A stretch of 64,000 nt of DNA from Spiroplasma corruscae (GCF_002237575.1 NZ_CP022535.1:744001-808000), one strand, 5' to 3'; counted from the first letter of the stretch, positions 47,200 to 63,636 are shown. Made by a program: numbers and translations. Notes: generated by a model not told the origin, from the letters alone.

Positions 47200-49251
47200 T
47201 TATTCAAAAAGATTAATAATTTCAATAATATAACTCTTATTAATGATATTTTTTAAATTTTCATAATTATTACAAAAATAATCGGTTATTGATTTTCTAC
47301 AATTTTTATCTACCTGACATGAGTTATATAAATTTGAAATATTAATAATAATTTGTTCTTCTTCATCATTAATATTATTAATGTTAAATCCATTTAATAA
47401 ATATTTAATTAACTCCTCTACTTTATTTAAGTATTTAAACTTACATAACTTAACATAACTTAATTTATTTACATATTTATCAAAATAAAATTTGTCTTCT
47501 TGATTTTCTTTATACAAATAATAAATATCTAAGTTAAATTTTTTTAGCTCCAACGATGTATTGATCAAATCATATCTGCCATTTAAAAAAGTTACGTAAT
47601 AATGATTAGGTAGTAACTTTTGTAATATTTTGCAATAATTTACACCTTCTAATAAAATGATTTTTTTATATTTTGAATCCAACTTATCTTTATTCAATTT
47701 ATAGAAATTATTCAATTTATAGTCATAAGAATAATTAAGATTATTTAAATATTTTCTATCTTTATGTATTACATTCTTTCCAAACTTGTTTTTTTTAATA
47801 TAATAATAATTATTTGTAATTATAAAATTCGTACTAGACGTAGCAAATAATATTTTTAAATTATTGTTCGCAACACTATTGATATACTTAATTAAATTAA
47901 TTTGTAAGTTTTTGTCTAGCGATGAGCATATATTATCAATTAATATTATTGGTTTTAGATTTTCTTTTTTTATAAATTCTAAAATAATATATACATTAAA
48001 AAACTCTAATATTGAAGAAGATAAAATAAAATTTCTTTCTTTATATTCATCATTAAAGTATTTAAAACCAATACTAAGAATCCCATCAAAATCATCAAAT
48101 ACCAATCTTACATTTTTTAAATACTCGTATTCATTATCATTATTAAATCCATCTAATAATATGTTTATGAAACTATCAAAAAACAGTCTTAATTTATTTA
48201 TTACTTTGTTTTTAGATTCATTATTATCATTATTAAAATTTAGGGACTCATAAAAAAGTTTCTCATTAATATCTATGGCTCTTAAGAACATAAACTCAAA
48301 ATTATCTTTGCTTCCTTCTGATATTGATTTATGACTAATAAGGCTTCATTCTCTAACAATAAATCTGTTTAAATTTAATATAACTTTGTTATTTATTGTA
48401 GATGTAATTAACTTTTCTTGTGTAGTTGAAAATGTATCTATATTTAATTTTTCAACTTTGTTATCTATAAACTTGATTAATTCTTTAGGTGAAATATTTT
48501 TCCTTAATGTTCTAAATAATTCTAATACTTCCGTCCTTTGTATAAATTCATTAAAAGACTTTCCATAATATTTAATAAAAACTGAGCTATCTATACTAAT
48601 ATTTTTTTTATTATTATATTTACTAATTAAATAGTCATTAATTCATATGCTATTATTTAAGTAATCTAAATAGTTTAAATAATTATTTTGATACATTCTC
48701 TCAATATCTAAATGAAAATTATTATCTATATCATTAGTTATAACTTTATTAATTAAAATATAAAATAAATTATGAAAACCTTTAATCTTTATTAAATAAA
48801 ATCTATTGTTTAAACTATCCATATACAAAAAACCTTCCTTGTATAAAGATTTAAAGTAATTAATAAATAATAAAAACTGATCATTAACTAGTTTTATTAA
48901 ATCAATATTTGATACCCTACTTTTCTTAAATGCATTTAAGTATTCGTTTTCACTAGTAACTATGTAATAAAACTCTAATAAATATCTTAATGTTAATTTA
49001 ATGTAAAAGTCAGATAACTTTTTAGCATCTTTTTCATCTTCGATTTGAAATTTATAAACTTCATTATTTTTAATACTACCTTCAATTTCAATTTCTTTGT
49101 TACTAATTTGATTTATATAACAAAACTCAATTTTATTTAATAGCGTTGTCTTTCCTGATCCACTTGGTCCTAATATAATATTAAGATTATCCTTAAAATT
49201 TATTATTTGGTTTTTTTTAAATCCTTCTACACTATTTATTTTTATTTTCAT
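47200..49251 (-). CDS. OLD-like AAA ATPase with TOPRIM-like C-terminal region, atypical active site
   Basis: 683 residues. Walker A GPSGSGKTT (28-36) near the N-terminus. The Walker B region PIILIDNICSSLDKN has Asn440 in place of the catalytic Glu, and the switch region ILFATSSTNFI has Ser where OLD-type proteins have His. After about residue 530, KKIILLEGVNYCKIL resembles TOPRIM motif I (Glu535-Gly536), with FLNGRYDL further on. OLD-family ATPase-nucleases act in phage defence or DNA repair. This copy may be an ATP-binding but poorly hydrolysing variant. It follows a decayed paralogue and faces the arc operon divergently. Confidence 0.78.
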
Positions 49252-54254: not shown

Positions 54255-54926
54255 TTATAATATCTTTTGCAAACTTTTATAAATTGTATAAAAGTCATTT
54301 CCCAGAATTACTATATAATCTTTAAATCTTATATAACCACAGCTTTTAGAGTATTTACTAATTTCATTCTTATTAGGATATCAAAAGTTATTTTTTTTGA
54401 TTTTAATTTTAAATTGGTTATCATCGTCATTAGATAAATAAATTATATTTGATAATAAAATGGAGTAAAATAATTTCTTAGCTTGTGTATTTAGAATGTT
54501 CAATTTAGTAATTAAATTTTTAAATAAGCTATCAATTATATTATTATAATCGAAATTATTATCAAGTAACTCTGAGTACTTAATTTCATAAACTTCTTTT
54601 ATATCTTTTACTTTTGTTATAATGTCAAATGATAAAAGTACATCTATATATTGTCTAATAGCCGATTTTGAATAACCACTAGTTTGTAATTTTTTTGTCG
54701 GTGTAACATCAAAACTTCCATTTCTTAAATAAAATTTATTCTGATTAAATATTTTATTTACTTGTATATATTTTTCCCTTTTATCTTTTGAGATTAATTG
54801 TAATTTAAAACAAAAATTTTCAACAATGCCAACAACATCAGTTTTAATCTTTCAGTAACTAAATCCTTCAAGGTTTTCAAATAAATCAATTATTTCTTGA
54901 ATTGTATTAGATGTTATAGATTTCAT
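54255..54926 (-). CDS. winged-helix-like hypothetical protein, last gene of the HEPN-DUF262 unit
   Basis: 223 residues. About residues 75-115 (KKLQTSGYSKSAIRQYIDVL...ITKVKDIKEVYEI) look like a winged helix-turn-helix; the remainder is helical and unassigned. Its start lies 20 bases inside the end of the HEPN-DUF262-DUF1524 gene, so it is translationally coupled to it. Two TGA Trp. A role as regulator or subunit of that nuclease is inferred from coupling only. Confidence 0.7.
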
Positions 54927-57387
54927 TTACTATTATTGAAGCTATTTTAGAACTTCTTTCATCTATGTCATCAAATGTAAATTGATCTATTGTTAATAAG
55001 TTAGCATTATTATATCCATATGGAACCTTTGCAAGTCTTGAATCAGTATCTTTATAACTTTTTTGTTTTACTTGGAAAGAGCTGTTTTTAATTTCTGAGT
55101 TATTTGGTAAGTCCAATAGGAGTAAATTACCAATTTTATCTAATCTTTCTTTGTATTTATCCTCTAAAACTTTATTTCAAGGTTTACCACCAGATAACAT
55201 ATTTTTTCAATCGCTTGATAAAGTTTGAGGGACAATATGTTCTAAAGAAGTCTTCCCGAAGGAAATATTTTGATTAGCCTTTGTCCTTGAATTCATTCAG
55301 AACTGTTCTAATCTAGACAAAAATACATTAGCAAGTGGTACATTTTGTACTTTTTGGTTTTTAAATGAATTTATAATTTCTTCTTTTGTTGGTAAAGTTA
55401 GTTCCTGTGATAATGAATAATCTTCATTTAACTTATCGAACTTAGCATCTCCTGAGAATCAATTCTTTATTAAAAGTGGTAAGTTTTTTTTAAATTCATT
55501 TGAATGTTCAAATGTTTTTAAGTATTTAATAAGTTTGATGAATGTAGATTCTTTGAAAGATTGCCCTGTACCTCTAGTTTGAACTAATAAAGAAGATCAT
55601 TTTTCAATTTCAAATAAACAATCTCTTAAGAACTCCTTATTATATAAAGAAATTCTTCTATCGTCTGGATTTCAGGTTTTATCAGAATAAATATCTACTA
55701 AATAAAATATTAATAGTGAAAAATCTTTATGAGATAAGTTCTTTAATATATCACCAAATTCATAAAACTCATTTGATGAAGATTCATAAAGATTACCAAT
55801 CCTTACTACTTTAAATACATGAAAATATCTACCTAAATCAGAACAAAGAGCTAAATATCCCTTTTCACTTAGGTTACTATCTTTATAAAATCTTTTAAAA
55901 TTCTTTAATAAGCTTTTTTTATTTTTTTGTATTTTAAATTTAATTAAATCTTTATTATCGTTTATTGCATCAAGATAAGTTATTAAGTTAAATAAAAATT
56001 CTTCATATTTTTTATTATCTTCATCTAGTGATTTTTTTACTCCGTTTTTTAATATAGGCATTTTAAAATACTTAGTTAATTCTGGAACCAACTCATTAGA
56101 TTTAATTTTAAACACTTTCTCATCAATACTATTAAATATATAATTTTTTATCATATCAAAAGTATCTAAGTCTTTACCTTTGGAGTTTAAGTTTTCAAAA
56201 ATTTCCATCTCATTATTATTTTCATTATTGTCAAAAACAATAAAAGATATAATAAATTTATTATAATAATACTCATAAATCTTTTCGAGATTTTCAATGC
56301 TTAAGTTTTTTAAACTATTATAAAAATAATAATAATTATCTAATATTTGATTCTTACTTAATTTATGTCTTAACTCTTCTTCAAATTCATTTCTATTACT
56401 ATAGCCTCTAAGAATTAAATTTATGCTATCTGTTGCATTTCTTTTATCTGAAGCAAAGTTTCTGTACTTTTCGTTAATTCTTTTGGGTGAATAAATTCCA
56501 TTTTCTTTATAGTTAAATAAATATTCAAGTTCATCCGGAATGCTAAACATATAATCATAATCTTCAGGATCTGCACTTTTCATAATATCATAAATAGCTT
56601 TAAATAAAATTAGTGAAGTAGTTACTCTTTGTTGACCATCAATAAGTTTTATATCTAGTTTACTATTATCAATTAACGAAACTTCATATTTACAAGCTAT
56701 TGTACCAAAATAAATTAGTTCATTAGATTCTGATTTATCAATTACTTGATCTAAAAGTTCTGAACATTCTTCAGGTGTTCATCTATAATCTCTTTGGTAT
56801 GGTGGTATTGTAAATAACTTATTTTTATCCAATACTAATTTGCCAATTGGAGTTTTGTAAATGTTTATTTGTGGGTCATCAAAAAACTTTTCTTCTTCAT
56901 CTCTTATATTTTTATGACTTGATTTTACAAAATAAATATTTTCATCAAATGTTTTAACTTCAATATCTTTTCCATCTATTTCTATTACAAAGTAATTAAT
57001 AATAGATTTAAGATTTTTCAAAATTGTTACACATTGTAAAAATGACGGTTTACTTTGTTCAACATTTATATCATCTTTTGGGGCATGGAACCTTGAGTTT
57101 CTTTCAAACATTATATAATCTAAGAAATTTAGTATTCTACCTTCAATTTTTTTTTGTTTTCGATCCATAAACATTGACCTTAGCATATTCTTCATTTCAC
57201 CAAGTTTTCTTAACTCTTTTAAACTTAACAACTCTTTTAGATACTCTTCTAAAAATGTATATGACTCAATTAATACACCATTATAGTCTTCATCAACAAT
57301 CAATAGGTCTTCAAGAGTACTCATTCTTTCTATAATTCACTTGTATTCATAATAGTCTTCTAAAAATTTAAAATTATTACTTATCAT
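54907..57387 (-). CDS. HEPN-like + DUF262 + DUF1524 nuclease (GmrSD-like)
   Basis: 826 residues. Domains in order: an N-terminal helical domain (about 25-135) with ERNSRFH at 94-100, i.e. the R-x4-H motif of HEPN ribonucleases; a DUF262/GmrS domain with IPPYQRDYRW (193-202) and LIDGQQRVTT (DGQQR 249-253, nucleotide-dependent); and a C-terminal DUF1524/GmrD HNH-type nuclease with LEHIVPQ (His717) and IGNLLLLDLPNNSEI. GmrSD-type proteins are modification-dependent restriction systems. The start is ATG 57385-57387 (GGAGAAAATA before it), overlapping the methyltransferase gene by 11 bases. Several TGA Trp join the parts into one frame. Confidence 0.87.
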
Positions 57388-58702
57388 TATTTTCTCCTTC
57401 ATTATTTATTTCTAAATCATATATTTTTTTAAAAATTGATATCAATACATTAACTGTTATTGAATTACCAGATTGCCTATATAAAACTGCCTGTTTAATA
57501 TTATTGGCTTGTGCCTTCTCAAAATCACTTTCATCAAACCCCATTAATAGATAAGTTTCTCTTGGGGTAAGAAAACGGTACTTAGATTTTTTGTTAATAT
57601 TTGATAAGGAAGACCCTCTTAAATCTATTATTCCAGCATTAGGATGTCTATCCTGTTTTGTTGTGATTGTGCGACAACTCTTCAAATATAGACCTTCACT
57701 TGTACTATTATAAAATCCTATATTATTTTTTATAAATATTGGATAGTTTCATATTTCTTGAGTATACAAAACAGGGTTTTCTTCAAACATTTTTACACGA
57801 CTAGGAGTGTTATTTGGTGTCGCGAATATTGCTTCGTTCTCATACTTCTTTTTTGAATAATCAACTTTCAATACTTCTTCTAAGGTATGTATATTTTTTA
57901 TAATGTCATTAAAATTATCAATTTTGTTAGATTCTATGATTCTTTTTTTTTCTGTTCAAGTATCACTAAAATTATTAATGCTTTTTAGACAACTAATAGC
58001 ATAAACTCTTTCTCTTTTTTGTGGAATTCCATGATCATAAGAATTTAATAAATAAGTTTGAGTATTGTAACCTATAGATTTTAAAAAATTTATTCATTCA
58101 ATATAGTCTGTTTTGTGTTTGCTTGAAATCATATTTTTAACATTTTCTAAAAGTAGGTACTTAGGTAGTTTATTTATAATTTTAAGTTCTTTAAGAATTC
58201 TTTCAATCTCCCATAAAAGTCCACTTCTTGTTCCGCTTCCTTTTTTCATTCCATTACAAGAACCATGAAAGCTTCCCGCAACAGATAAATCTTGGCATGG
58301 AAAGGAATAAGTTAATATATCGATGTCACCAACATTTTTTACTAACTCTTCTCCTTTTAGTTCCAAAATACTACCTTGATTGTTAGAATTTCTATAAGAT
58401 GTGTACAATAGTTGTTTAATTTCTAATGGCAAGTTAAGTATAAAGGAACTTTTAACAGGTGTTTTACCATCATTTGAATGAGTAAAATTTAATAAGTATT
58501 CATCTAAATCTGATTCATTTATATCCTTTGCACCATTATTGTTATTGTTATGAATAGCATTGTAGCTAATATTTGACCATATATCTCATTCGCTTGTTCC
58601 TACAACTTTAAAAAAATTATTAAACTTCTTATTAAGTATTGACAGTGCCTTATTTTGAGCACCAATTCCTGCAAATGCTTCAAATACCTTTAATTTTTTC
58701 AT
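57377..58702 (-). CDS. DNA (cytosine-5)-methyltransferase, coupled to the HEPN-DUF262 nuclease
   Basis: 441 residues. Motif I FEAFAGIGAQNKAL, catalytic PCQ (Cys136), ENV (186-188), QKRERVY and GNSITVNV in the usual order, with a target-recognition region between about 235 and 370. Target sequence unknown. It overlaps the HEPN-DUF262-DUF1524 gene by 11 bases, an arrangement expected if methylation marks self DNA for that nuclease. The leader holds a 16-A tract between promoter-like elements. Confidence 0.92.
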
Positions 58703-58779: not shown

Positions 58780-60843
58780 TTAATTATAATCATTGTTTTT
58801 AATTATTTTATTTACGAACTTAAAATTATTATTATCAATACCATATAAATCAAATAAATTTCGAATTAATATAAGCATTTCATTAGGAGTGTAATTTCTA
58901 TTATAATAAACTTTAGTATCGTGAATTTCATTAAATCTTTTTATTTTACTCTTGTCAAACGATATATCAACCGTTCCATTATTTTTGAATGAATAATTTT
59001 GTAAAGCAAGTGAAATCATTTTTTCAGAATTTTCCTTAAATAATTCTTCTAATGTAAGTTTTAACATTTCTGACCAGTTTTTAGTATAAAATCTATTACC
59101 ATTTAATTCAAAATAAGAGATATTTGTTCCATTTACATCCTCAAAGTCTTCTAATGTTTGCTCTGGTTGATTAAGCGAATCGTAAATGATTTTAATTCTT
59201 GGTTCTTTGTTACAAAAGATATTAATAAAATTTTCTCATAAAAAATTACTTCTATTAATTATTGCATCTTCATTTCAGCATTCGCTTTCGAAAATAAGCT
59301 TATTAATATGATTAAACCTACTAGACTTTTCTATAAGTATTGATTTTTTTCTTTTAAAACTATAGTCTTTCAAATTAGAGTTATAACCAGTTAATGATAA
59401 ATTACCTATAGTATGTAAGAACTGACTGTGTATTAATGAATAATCAGGTCCTAAATATTGTTTTCACTCAGATGAAAGATTTTGTGGCATAATGTGCTCA
59501 ATAGTAATATTTTCATCATATATAATTTTTTCCTTAGAATTAAAGTGTTCAATTTCATATAAAATATACTTGCATAATTGTCTATTTGAGTACATATTAC
59601 TAATTTGAAAAGATTTCTTTACATCGATATCACCTGGATATCTATCTGTTGATTTAATTTGAATAAAATAAGATCATATCGCATCATAATAATTTTTTTT
59701 GTTTTCAATTTTATCAAATATTTTTACATATAAATCTACAAACAATTTATTTAGATTCTTAGCAACTTTATCAACGATTAATCTTCTAAGTATGTAGTTT
59801 CTAATCAATAACAAACAATCATACAAAGTGTCTTGGTCTATTAAATCAATATAGTAGTCATTTAATATATTAATTATAAATGGAAAGCAAGTTCTTTGTT
59901 TAAAAACTAGTAAATCCCTTATAACTTTATTAATTTTAGAATTAGGGAATGGCACAACTTGCAATAAAATTGCATATAACTTTGATACTTTCTTAAGGTC
60001 TTTGAGCACCTCCTCGTTTGGTATATCATTTACTGTTAAAAACTTTTTAAATTCGCTATAAACTTTTGAATCAGGTATTGATTTATTAGTCTTATACATA
60101 ATATAATGATGAATGAAGCTATTTAAGTTTTTATTATCAAATAATTTTTCCAATTCATATCAATAATTTTCATATAATTCTTCACTATAATTTGTCATAA
60201 GTAGATAGTTTCTAATCAAATCAGATGTTGAAAGCTCAACCCCTGTTGAGTTAATTCTTTCAAAAATTAATTGAGGATTATCGTCTATATTAATTTGAAC
60301 TCTAACAAATATTAGTTTGGAAATAAGTTTTGAAAATTCATCTATCTTAAATTTTTCTTCTTCGATTAGCTTACTAAATTTATTTTTAAAAAATATATAA
60401 TTTGAAAAAATTCTTGAGCCAATTTTTATTTTATCAAAGTCATCATTCAATAAATATTTAAAAGTTATATCGTCCTCTTTATTCAATTTTATTTTTTTTG
60501 TCTTCTTGTCTTCCATATATAAATATGAACGCAAAGACTCTGAATCATTATGATTAGTGCATAAATCATGTAATGCTTTAATTAAAATGAATATAGTTGT
60601 AATTCTCTGTTGACCATCAATGATTATATTTTGACTACTTCTGGTTAAATCATTATTAATTCTTTGTAATATAATAATACCTATAAAGTGTTTATATTCA
60701 TTATTTGTTAATAACAAATCGCTAAATAATTGTTCACATTCCTTTGTAGTTCATGAGTAATTTCTTTGAAAAACAGGAATAATGTATAATTCATTTAACT
60801 CTTTTAACTCTTTTTCTATAAATGTATTTGTTGCTTCTATCAT
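58780..60843 (-). CDS. DUF262 + DUF1524 nuclease (GmrSD-like), second copy
   Basis: 687 residues. DUF262 starts near the N-terminus with IPVFQRNYSW (22-31), IIDGQQRITT (DGQQR 76-80) and FERINSTGVELSTSDLIRNY. DUF1524 has ITIEHIMPQNLS (His450) and IGNLSLTGYNSNL. A C-terminal region of about 150 residues is unassigned. Unlike the copy at 54907 it lacks the HEPN-like N-terminus. Start ATG 60841-60843. It lies between two C5 methyltransferase genes, 77 bases before one and 160 after the other. Confidence 0.9.
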
Positions 60844-61003: not shown

Positions 61004-62248
61004 TTAAACTATTTTATTTTTAATTTTAATTTGACACAATTTTGTTTTGTTAATGATATTAAAAGAATCCTCAATTGATTTAGATAACTTTTCAATGATC
61101 GAAACTACAAGTGCATTACCCATACAAAAATATCTCATTCTTTCTGTTTTTATACATTCAGTTCAATTATCATCAAATCCATTTATTCTTTCAGCTTCCA
61201 AAGGTGTTATAAATCGGTAAAATTCTCCTTTTTTAATGATATGTGTTGATCTATTTAATGTGCCCTCACTAGTTATTAAAGTTCTAGCTGGTTTTTCAAC
61301 GCTATCAAACAATGACATACTTCCCTCGGTGTAGTTATATACCTCACCATTTGGTTTATATCTTAAAATTTTTTTACCTGATTTTAAATACTTCATCTTA
61401 CCTAATTGGTATTCATTAAGATAATATTTTAAATCTACTTTATTTTCTAATATTGTCTTTAAAATACCAAGTTTATTATTACATATTGGCTTAAAATCGT
61501 AGCAAAATACTCTACCATTATAGCAAAAACCTTTATTTAAAAATTTTTTAATTTGATAATTATGTGTTATGTCAACCTCATTTGTAAATGAGTTCAAATC
61601 AATAAATAGATTAGTTTTTTCATCTTGTAAAGATGGAAACTCTTTATCAAAAAACCCGTTATTAATTCTACTTGTATCTTCATTTATTTTTATATTGTTA
61701 TCAAAAAATAATCTATTCTTCGCAAATATAAAGACCCTTTTACGTCTTTGAACCATTCCATAATCAGCCGCATTAATTACTTGTCACTCAACATCATATC
61801 CTAACTTATCAAAGTTTTTCAACATAATAGCAAAATCTCTACCTCTTTGTTTTGAAGGGGATTTTAATAATCTGTCTACATTTTCTAATAAAACCATTTT
61901 TGGTTGTTTATTTTCAAGTATTCAACTTATTTCTCACCAAAGCACACCTTTTTTGCCCTCTATTCCTTTAGCATTAGTTGAAGCTACGGAATAATCTTGA
62001 CACGGAAATCCACCAACTAATAAATCATGGTTAAATGGTATATCGTATTTACAATCTTTTATATCTAAGTTAACTGCATTTTCTGAACCAAAATTATGAA
62101 CATAACAATCAAAAGCGTGCTGAACCTTTTTATTAGGTTCTCATTGGTTTGCAAAAACAAAATCAAATAGTTTATCATTATATCTAGTCATTCCAAGCCT
62201 AAAACCACCAACACCAGCAAATAATTCTACTACACTAATTTTGTTCAT
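61004..62248 (-). CDS. DNA (cytosine-5)-methyltransferase, partner of the Sau3AI-like enzyme
   Basis: 414 residues. Motif I VVELFAGVGGFRLGM, catalytic PCQ (Cys83), ENV (122-124), QRRKRVF and a C-terminal GNALVVSII. Divergent from the GATC-type endonuclease with 53 bases between starts. Sau3AI-type enzymes are paired with a methylase that makes m5C in GATC, so this is the likely protecting enzyme; the specificity is inferred from the partner. Several TGA Trp. Confidence 0.93.
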
Positions 62249-62301
62249 ATGCAACCTCTTCTTAAAATACTTTATAATAATATCATATAGGAGTATTTAG
62301 A

Positions 62302-63636
62302 TTGAGTAATTATATAAAAAAGGATCTTGAATATATATATAAAATAGGACAAGAAGTTATAGGTAAAACATTCTATGAAATTTTTGGTGACCAATGCTTT
62401 AAATTCAACAATAAAGGTGGTATCGGTAACATAGTACAATCATTACTTTATAATGTGCCTATAAACTCAAGAAGTGAATCTGATTTTATCGAAGAAGGTG
62501 TAGAACTTAAAGTTATTCCATTTAAAGAGATAAAATCAAATATTTTAGTACCTAAAGAAAGAATGGTTTTAAATCTTATTAATTATGAGAAAGTGGTTAA
62601 AGAAAGTAGTTTTGAAACAAGTAGTTTTTTAAATAAAAATAAGGTAATCCAAGTAATAATATATTTACATGAGTATGAAAAAAAATGATATGACTTTAAA
62701 ATTATTAACTCTTTCATGATTGATATAACAAAGCAAAAAGAAATTGAAACAATAAAAAAAGATTGATTAACAATCATAAATTATATAAAAGACGGGAAAG
62801 CCGATCAACTAAGTGAAAGGTTGACACAAATATTAGGTGCTTGTACAAAGGGAAAAAATAAAGAGTCAAAAGTAAAACAACCATTCTCTAATATTAAAGC
62901 TATGAGTAGAGCATTCTCATTTAAATCTTCTTTTATAAAATATAAAGTAAATGAAATAAAGAAAAATAGTATTAAGTACTTTAATGAAATTTTTATAGAT
63001 AATTTAAGAGAAAAAAATTATACTATTAATTACGAGTCAATCATAGGAAATATTAAAAAGCTAATTGGAGTAGATTTAATTAAATTTACACAGGATTCCA
63101 AAATAAAAAATTGGAGAAATTTAGCCATTAAAAAATACATAAGCTTTACATATCCAAATTTATTAAAAGATTGTGAAACTTGTAATATCAAAATAATTGT
63201 GAAAAAACTAAAATACAACGGTACAATTCAAGAAGAAATTGGCACAAACTATATGCTAGATATAAACGAAATGGTTGAAGAAAAATTTATAGATAGTACA
63301 TTTTACCAGGAAGTAGTCTTAAAAAAATTTATTATAATTGGCATTGATTGCAATAATATTGTATCAAAAGTTTTTTCTTTTAAGTTTGATGAAAGTAATA
63401 TTAAAAATGCATTAAAAGTCTATAACGACACTAAGAATAAAATTATAGTTGCATTAAATAAAGAAAATAAAGAAATGCTAAGAATTAATTTTGTAAAAAA
63501 AAGCGATAACTTAACATTGCATATTAGACCAAAGGCTATTAATGCAAAAGATACTTATAAAAATGGTAAATATAAATTAGAAAACCAACCCAAGCAATGT
63601 TTTTGAATTAACAAGGAAGAGTTGATAGAAGTTTAA
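62302..63636 (+). CDS. Sau3AI/MutH-family type II restriction endonuclease (GATC)
   Basis: 444 residues. Catalytic D-x6-E-x-K in SDFIEEGVELKV (Asp61, Glu68, Lys70). RAFSFKSSFI and HIRPKAINAKDTY...KQCFW near the C-terminus are typical of Sau3AI-like enzymes, which have a second, non-catalytic MutH-like half. Start is TTG at 62302: TAGGAG lies eight bases upstream and no ATG is near. The first Trp of several is TGA. Predicted to cut GATC when unmethylated. Confidence 0.93.

Follow-up and report, generated by a model that had tools for sequence, protein, structure and literature searches.

Within a 64,000-nucleotide window of the Spiroplasma corruscae genome (GCF_002237575.1, NZ_CP022535.1:744001-808000; the window is the whole stretch of DNA that was analysed, and positions are counted from its first letter), three overlapping genes encode a C5-cytosine DNA methyltransferase (M2), a HEPN-DUF262-DUF1524 nuclease and a 223-amino-acid protein with a WKIGT motif. 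Routine annotation assigns DUF262-DUF1524 genes to type IV, the enzymes that attack modified DNA. Sequence comparisons and the analogy with the nucleases DndI and SspE suggest that the three genes most likely constitute not a type IV system but a restriction–modification (R-M)-type defence system in which 5-methylcytosine marks self. They also suggest that the Mollicute clade of such nucleases tied to a C5-methyltransferase should be interpreted as the restriction component of R-M systems, with 5-methylcytosine protecting. The genes and domains are as follows.

57377-58702, minus strand: M2, C5-cytosine DNA methyltransferase, 441 amino acids (PF00145, E=1.2e-54)
54907-57402, minus strand: HEPN-DUF262-DUF1524 nuclease, 831 amino acids (Pfam GmrSD_N and GmrSD_C; nearest structures DndI and SspE)
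56854-57387, minus strand: N-terminal DUF4145-type HEPN domain of the nuclease, residues ~6-183 (conserved residues, and profile matches in relatives)
57085-57102, minus strand: HEPN motif R101-N-S-R-F-H106
56134-56832, minus strand: DUF262 (GmrSD_N) domain, residues 191-423 (6.3e-29, 102 bits; DGQQR at 255-259)
54940-55380, minus strand: DUF1524 (GmrSD_C) HNH domain, residues 675-821 (4.5e-18, 65.9 bits; EHIVP at 721-725)
54255-54926, minus strand: 223-amino-acid WKIGT protein, candidate target-recognition subunit (homology to N-terminal domains of HEPN-less DUF262 and HNH_2 nucleases)

The host genome (1.2 Mb) reads TGA as tryptophan, and the frames of the operon are open under translation table 4 only; open reading frames called with the standard code were dropped because the genes come out fragmented, and table 4 gives the exact coordinates. 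Transcription runs from M2 through the 831-amino-acid nuclease to the 223-amino-acid protein, the last two genes overlapping by 20 bases. M2 and the nuclease overlap by 26 bases if the nuclease begins at its first ATG and by 11 if it begins at the ATG at 57387; this second ATG has AAGGAG ahead of it and is the probable start. With table 4 and this start, the three minus-strand genes with overlaps of 11 and 20 bases described in the original prediction are recovered exactly. Of its residue numbers, H717 corresponds to H722 of the 831-amino-acid frame; R95 and H100 are one off (R96 and H101 from the second start).

The association of these genes was followed by searching the class (395 genomes) and the order (320 genomes). 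The regions flanking 53 methyltransferase hits were examined, and 49 Mollicute loci whose methyltransferase carries the motif T-x-TT(K/R)QDR were counted under a strict rule. A DUF262 gene lies directly downstream in 37 of the 49 (12 HEPN-type, 17 with WKIGT fused to the nuclease and 8 other), and a few of the remaining 12 loci also have a DUF262 gene nearby, lying upstream, broken or starting inside the methyltransferase gene. In the reciprocal direction, relatives of the nuclease (E<=1e-15) occur in 32 of the 320 genomes, with the methyltransferase beside them or within a few genes in 29; in two of the three exceptions the gene sits at a contig end or close to one, and the third has no HEPN domain. 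Type IV enzymes are characterized by having no dedicated methyltransferase partner, and here a C5-methyltransferase adjoins the nuclease in those 29 of 32 genomes. The exact order methyltransferase, HEPN-DUF262-DUF1524 nuclease and 223-amino-acid-type protein recurs in at least six other Mollicute genomes (L031, L032, L036, L074, L077, L078), so it is not unique to this genome; uniqueness was what the original prediction had named as counting against it. In a further genome (G141), the methyltransferase and nuclease have decayed together. The three-gene operon is a real conserved unit. No close relatives were found in plasmids or phages at the limits used, and the only matches in viral contigs were distant DUF262 proteins that lack the N-terminal domain.

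By its sequence, M2 is a sister of the CpG methyltransferases M.SssI and M.MpeI with a different target-recognition motif. These are its nearest characterized relatives, the nearest solved structure being M.MpeI (4dkj, E=5.8e-47), and its motifs PCQ, ENV and QxRxR are intact. M2 carries TITTKQDRHPNAG in its target-recognition region, in the place where M.SssI-type enzymes have TLTASGANSRIKI, and T-x-TT(K/R)QDR is near-invariant across the M2 subfamily and missing in M.SssI-type enzymes. The start of M2 is M.SssI-like, but an assignment as a CpG methylase was rejected because the target-recognition segment differs, and CpG specificity should therefore not be assumed. The M.SssI sequence used in this comparison is confirmed by a gene at locus L112 that matches it at 99.7%. 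A 376-amino-acid gene (L112:7841-8971, minus strand) begins a few bases after this M.SssI gene (L112:8975-10135, minus strand), and its homologue at L075:10671-11795 adjoins another SssI-type methyltransferase. Both proteins have weak HNH_2 matches (E 0.005 and 0.002, below the cut-off) and a CHI...H..FD pattern, which makes the L112 gene a candidate restriction partner of M.SssI.

Several M2-type methyltransferase genes (L084, L087, L089, L037, L091, L176, L177, L253) contain extended repeats of AG (11-25 units) or G (9-10) within or just ahead of their frames, often splitting them, and these tracts likely lead to phase variation of the methyltransferase. In Clostridia and Bacilli, the same subfamily stands with two further conserved gene sets (L122, L125, L126, L132, L133 and L146, L158, L159, L162, L164, L187), one encoding proteins of 628, 289 and 251 amino acids downstream of the methyltransferase and the other proteins of ~660, 315, 230 and 330 amino acids upstream; the members tested (L187, 653 and 309 amino acids; L122, 628 and 289 amino acids) had no Pfam match.

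The 223-amino-acid protein has no Pfam, PADLOC or NCBIfam match. Its segment FSYWKIKT...YSKSAIRQYIDVLLSFDII contains the motif FWKIxT...SKSxxRQYLDVLxSFxII, and a profile built from the N-terminal domains of DUF262 nucleases without HEPN finds the protein with E=5.5e-6 (hhalign 96.6%). In Ureaplasma-like genomes, the gene directly following a methyltransferase of the same kind encodes this WKIGT domain joined to an HNH_2 nuclease (E=1.7e-15; HNH_2 1e-8), and in L075 and L076 a protein linked by a motif of the WKIGT kind carries a NOV_C (PD-(D/E)XK-like) domain. By reading of the loci, WKIGT is a separate gene beside HEPN-type nucleases in ~19 of 20 cases (L034 is the exception), and HEPN-less DUF262-DUF1524 nucleases often have it fused. 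HEPN and fused types are mixed within one clade of 100/100 support in the methyltransferase tree (L032 versus L041 and L043). This mixing, together with the HNH_2 and NOV_C partners, indicates that nucleases are exchanged around a constant methyltransferase and a recognition-like WKIGT domain, in a modular family that draws on three or more interchangeable types of nuclease and in which HEPN is optional. The WKIGT protein is probably a target-recognition module that would bind DNA. A winged helix had been proposed for it: in Foldseek comparisons of its HNH_2 relative, the HNH part alone was matched confidently (VcaM4I, Z 7.9), and matches of the WKIGT part to winged helices were scattered and weak (eS10, CRP family, PadR, ArsR and HSF1; Z 2-3.3), so that they fit that proposal weakly but do not establish the fold.

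The nuclease itself combines DUF262 (DGQQR) and DUF1524 (HIVP) in one chain, as originally predicted. Both GmrSD_N and GmrSD_C score above their curated cut-offs, and the DGQQR and HNH motifs are present and intact, which places the protein in the GmrSD family; E721, H722, I723, P725, N759 and N768 are invariant in 13 relatives. The structures that match it best are those of DndI (phmmer 1.8e-11, Foldseek 3.8e-10) and SspE (Foldseek 4e-10); the type IV enzyme BrxU matches less well (2.5e-3).

M2 and the nuclease are encoded together, as one part of the type II R-M definition has it, and the plain pairs of methyltransferase and recognition-nuclease have the type II R-M layout, which supports the R-M reading. 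A type IV nuclease attacking 5-methylcytosine would kill a host in which it is so stably paired with a methyltransferase, which argues for protective methylation. The stable pairing, the occurrence of plain HNH nucleases as partners in the same position and the ranking of DndI and SspE ahead of BrxU together suggest that methylation marks self and that unmarked DNA is attacked. The conserved pairing likewise lends support to the view, already expressed in the original prediction, that methylation protects from the nuclease rather than attracts it. Some observations weigh on the other side. BrxU, a DUF262-DUF1524 relative, attacks 5-methylcytosine DNA (PMC10952713). A search for the target site by pooled k-mer depletion between genomes of the genus with and without the methyltransferase gave no depleted motif, the largest single k-mer contrast being CG, in the wrong direction. 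A phase-variable methyltransferase, as predicted in several relatives, would be dangerous unless nuclease synthesis were coupled to it; the gene overlaps may provide such coupling.

Under the R-M reading, M2 would methylate cytosine (C5) in one fixed sequence of the host chromosome, and the WKIGT protein would probably read the target site and act with the DUF262-DUF1524 protein. The DUF262 domain would hydrolyse nucleoside triphosphate and the DUF1524 HNH domain would nick or cut DNA. Methylation of the site would protect self DNA from the complex, the part that phosphorothioate plays with DndI and SspE, and invading DNA without methylation would be attacked. The HEPN domain would be a further module, probably a ribonuclease (RNase) released on a restriction trigger or on failed DNA cutting.

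Good support for assigning the N-terminal domain to DUF4145-type HEPN comes from sequence and not from structure. The R-x4-H that the original prediction had placed in an N-terminal helical domain is present as R101-N-S-R-F-H106, and R-N-x3-H is conserved in relatives. E31, E52 and H106 are invariant and R101-N102 near-invariant among the 13 relatives, in a region of ~20-30% identity, so the RN...H motif is not a chance occurrence. The 831-amino-acid protein on its own gave no direct DUF4145 match; scanned singly, the 13 relatives gave three weak DUF4145 matches (best 0.0014) and one HEPN_Apea match (0.0024). A further DUF262-DUF1524 group, most of whose members lie beside the same methyltransferase subfamily, has N-termini with (I/L)(R/K)xx(G/A/S)(N/D)xxxH; one member (L255) scores above the DUF4145 cut-off (4.5e-5) and another falls just short of it (1.1e-4). 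The profile of this group finds the 831-amino-acid protein at residues 6-183 with E=2.6e-8, and profile–profile comparison by hhalign gives a probability of 98.9%. This profile evidence bears out the HEPN call of the original prediction, DUF4145 being a HEPN family (Anantharaman et al. 2013; PMC3710099). AlphaFold models of the full nuclease (seven sequences) show residues 1-177 as helical with low confidence (predicted local distance difference test ~25-47), and a PDB sequence search with the N-terminal profile returned chance matches only.

The HEPN domain may be an active RNase, and there are two tentative accounts of its role. A two-stage action, which refines the R-M reading and is compatible with it, would have DUF1524 cut non-self DNA and HEPN then cut host RNA as an abortive step should the DNase be inhibited, much as PrrC acts alongside EcoprrI. 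The conserved HEPN motif favours this, as does PMC3710099, where HEPN domains are fused to restriction nucleases and helicases, never methylases, and a PrrC-like action is proposed. However, HEPN is missing from many otherwise equivalent systems with WKIGT in its place and is thus dispensable, and the arginine just before N is G, A or S in one subgroup, in which activity may be lost. The HEPN domain might instead be a scaffold without RNase activity, serving dimerization or docking of the separate 223-amino-acid protein: that HEPN nucleases nearly always have a separate WKIGT gene and HEPN-less ones a fused WKIGT domain (~19/20) looks as if HEPN were the docking site, but in the nuclease's own clade no other residues of the domain are as well conserved as the catalytic R, N and H. 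The most elaborate version of the R-M reading is unlikely in its entirety: a base-methylation counterpart of SspE and DndI, with a methylation-gated DNase and a HEPN RNase in one chain and a separate recognition protein, in which the absence of 5-methylcytosine at one fixed site would lead to DNA cutting and, on failure, to RNA cutting and cell shutdown.

It is improbable that the nuclease is a true type IV enzyme directed against other cytosine modifications on phage DNA (5-hydroxymethylcytosine, glucosylated 5-hydroxymethylcytosine or 5-methylcytosine in other contexts), with M2 an independent methyltransferase in the shared operon of a defence island, like BrxU with BREX: the domain architecture of GmrSD and BrxU, the frequent location of DUF262 genes near R-M genes (PMC4619093) and the second DUF262-DUF1524 gene and Sau3AI system adjoining the operon speak for it, but the pairing is with one methyltransferase subfamily, immediate, overlapping and reciprocal over many genera, not that of a loose island, and the WKIGT module is common to the HNH_2 and NOV_C partners of the same methyltransferase.

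The R-M reading has precedents. DndI (IscS-DndBCDE-DndI) and SspE (SspABCD-SspE) are DUF262-DUF1524 nucleases encoded together with a self-modification whose mark spares self, and the ATPase of DndI is stimulated by host phosphorothioate, self DNA being spared and unmarked phage DNA restricted (PMC11662687). Their mark is phosphorothioate, whereas here it is presumably 5-methylcytosine, and no HEPN domain or separate WKIGT protein is described for them. Regarding phosphorothioation genes, one PAPS_reduct match was found in the host, a 223-amino-acid frame elsewhere in the genome, away from the operon, which is presumably shorter than DndC; other dnd and ssp genes lay outside the search. Dnd systems in which cytosine methylases replace the phosphorothioation genes are on record (PMC12839542). 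GmrSD and BrxU share DUF262 (DGQQR) and DUF1524 (HNH) in one chain but attack modified cytosine without a partner methyltransferase of their own, whereas a dedicated C5-methyltransferase is nearly always adjacent here. HEPN-DUF262-HNH fusions have been on record since 2013 as HEPN-ParB(DUF262)-HNH proteins of the VNG7073 type, for which a dedicated C5-methyltransferase and WKIGT gene are not described in the available part of the source (PMC3710099).

CglI/NgoAVII (PMC4267653) combine a C5-methyltransferase with a PLD nuclease and a superfamily 2 helicase, and a fused PLD-helicase lies just upstream of the homologous methyltransferase in many Mollicutes; here the DUF262 nuclease and WKIGT are extra, and no match to the relatives' PLD-helicase was found in the host genome in a search without positive control. 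Outside Mollicutes, the same methyltransferase subfamily, with the same TTKQDR motif, occurs in the MORC/Z1/DUF4420/AIPR/Dcm system (Iyer et al. 2008, PMC2292703), whose effector genes are entirely different. A literature search of incomplete coverage found no description of a C5-methyltransferase that has a DUF262-DUF1524 protein as its restriction partner along with a separate WKIGT module. What is new here is the pairing with a dedicated base methyltransferase, together with the swapping of modules. The 'new logic' suggested by the original prediction was overstated: DUF262-DUF1524 nucleases gated by their own modification are known (SspE and DndI; PMC11662687), and a two-stage role for HEPN–restriction nuclease fusions, DUF262+HNH among them, is proposed in PMC3710099. 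The operon allows a direct test of the reading of a base mark by a DUF262 nuclease, as well as of the suggestion made in 2013 that DNA restriction is backed up by HEPN RNases (PMC3710099), and has a bearing on the transformability of mycoplasmas and spiroplasmas.

Upstream of the operon lie a second DUF262-DUF1524 gene and a complete Sau3AI-type R-M system, both of which the original prediction had missed. These genes, and one further gene elsewhere in the window (47200-49251), are as follows.

58780-60843, minus strand: second DUF262-DUF1524 protein, 687 amino acids, without HEPN (GmrSD_N 1.5e-32, GmrSD_C 4.2e-20; PADLOC Orf5 3.6e-117)
61004-62254, minus strand: methyltransferase of the Sau3AI-type R-M system
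62302-63636, plus strand: MutH-fold nuclease of the Sau3AI-type R-M system
47200-49251, minus strand: 683-amino-acid SMC/RecF-like ATPase

The part played by the 687-amino-acid protein in the M2 system is uncertain. Apart from the Sau3AI-type methyltransferase and M2, no C5-methyltransferase was found in the host genome, and several relatives (L034, L074, L077) likewise have Sau3AI-type nuclease genes in the neighbourhood of the same methyltransferase subfamily. The SMC/RecF-like ATPase has weak similarity to the defence ATPases mad3, AriA and PtuA, and its gene is located upstream of arginine deiminase genes.

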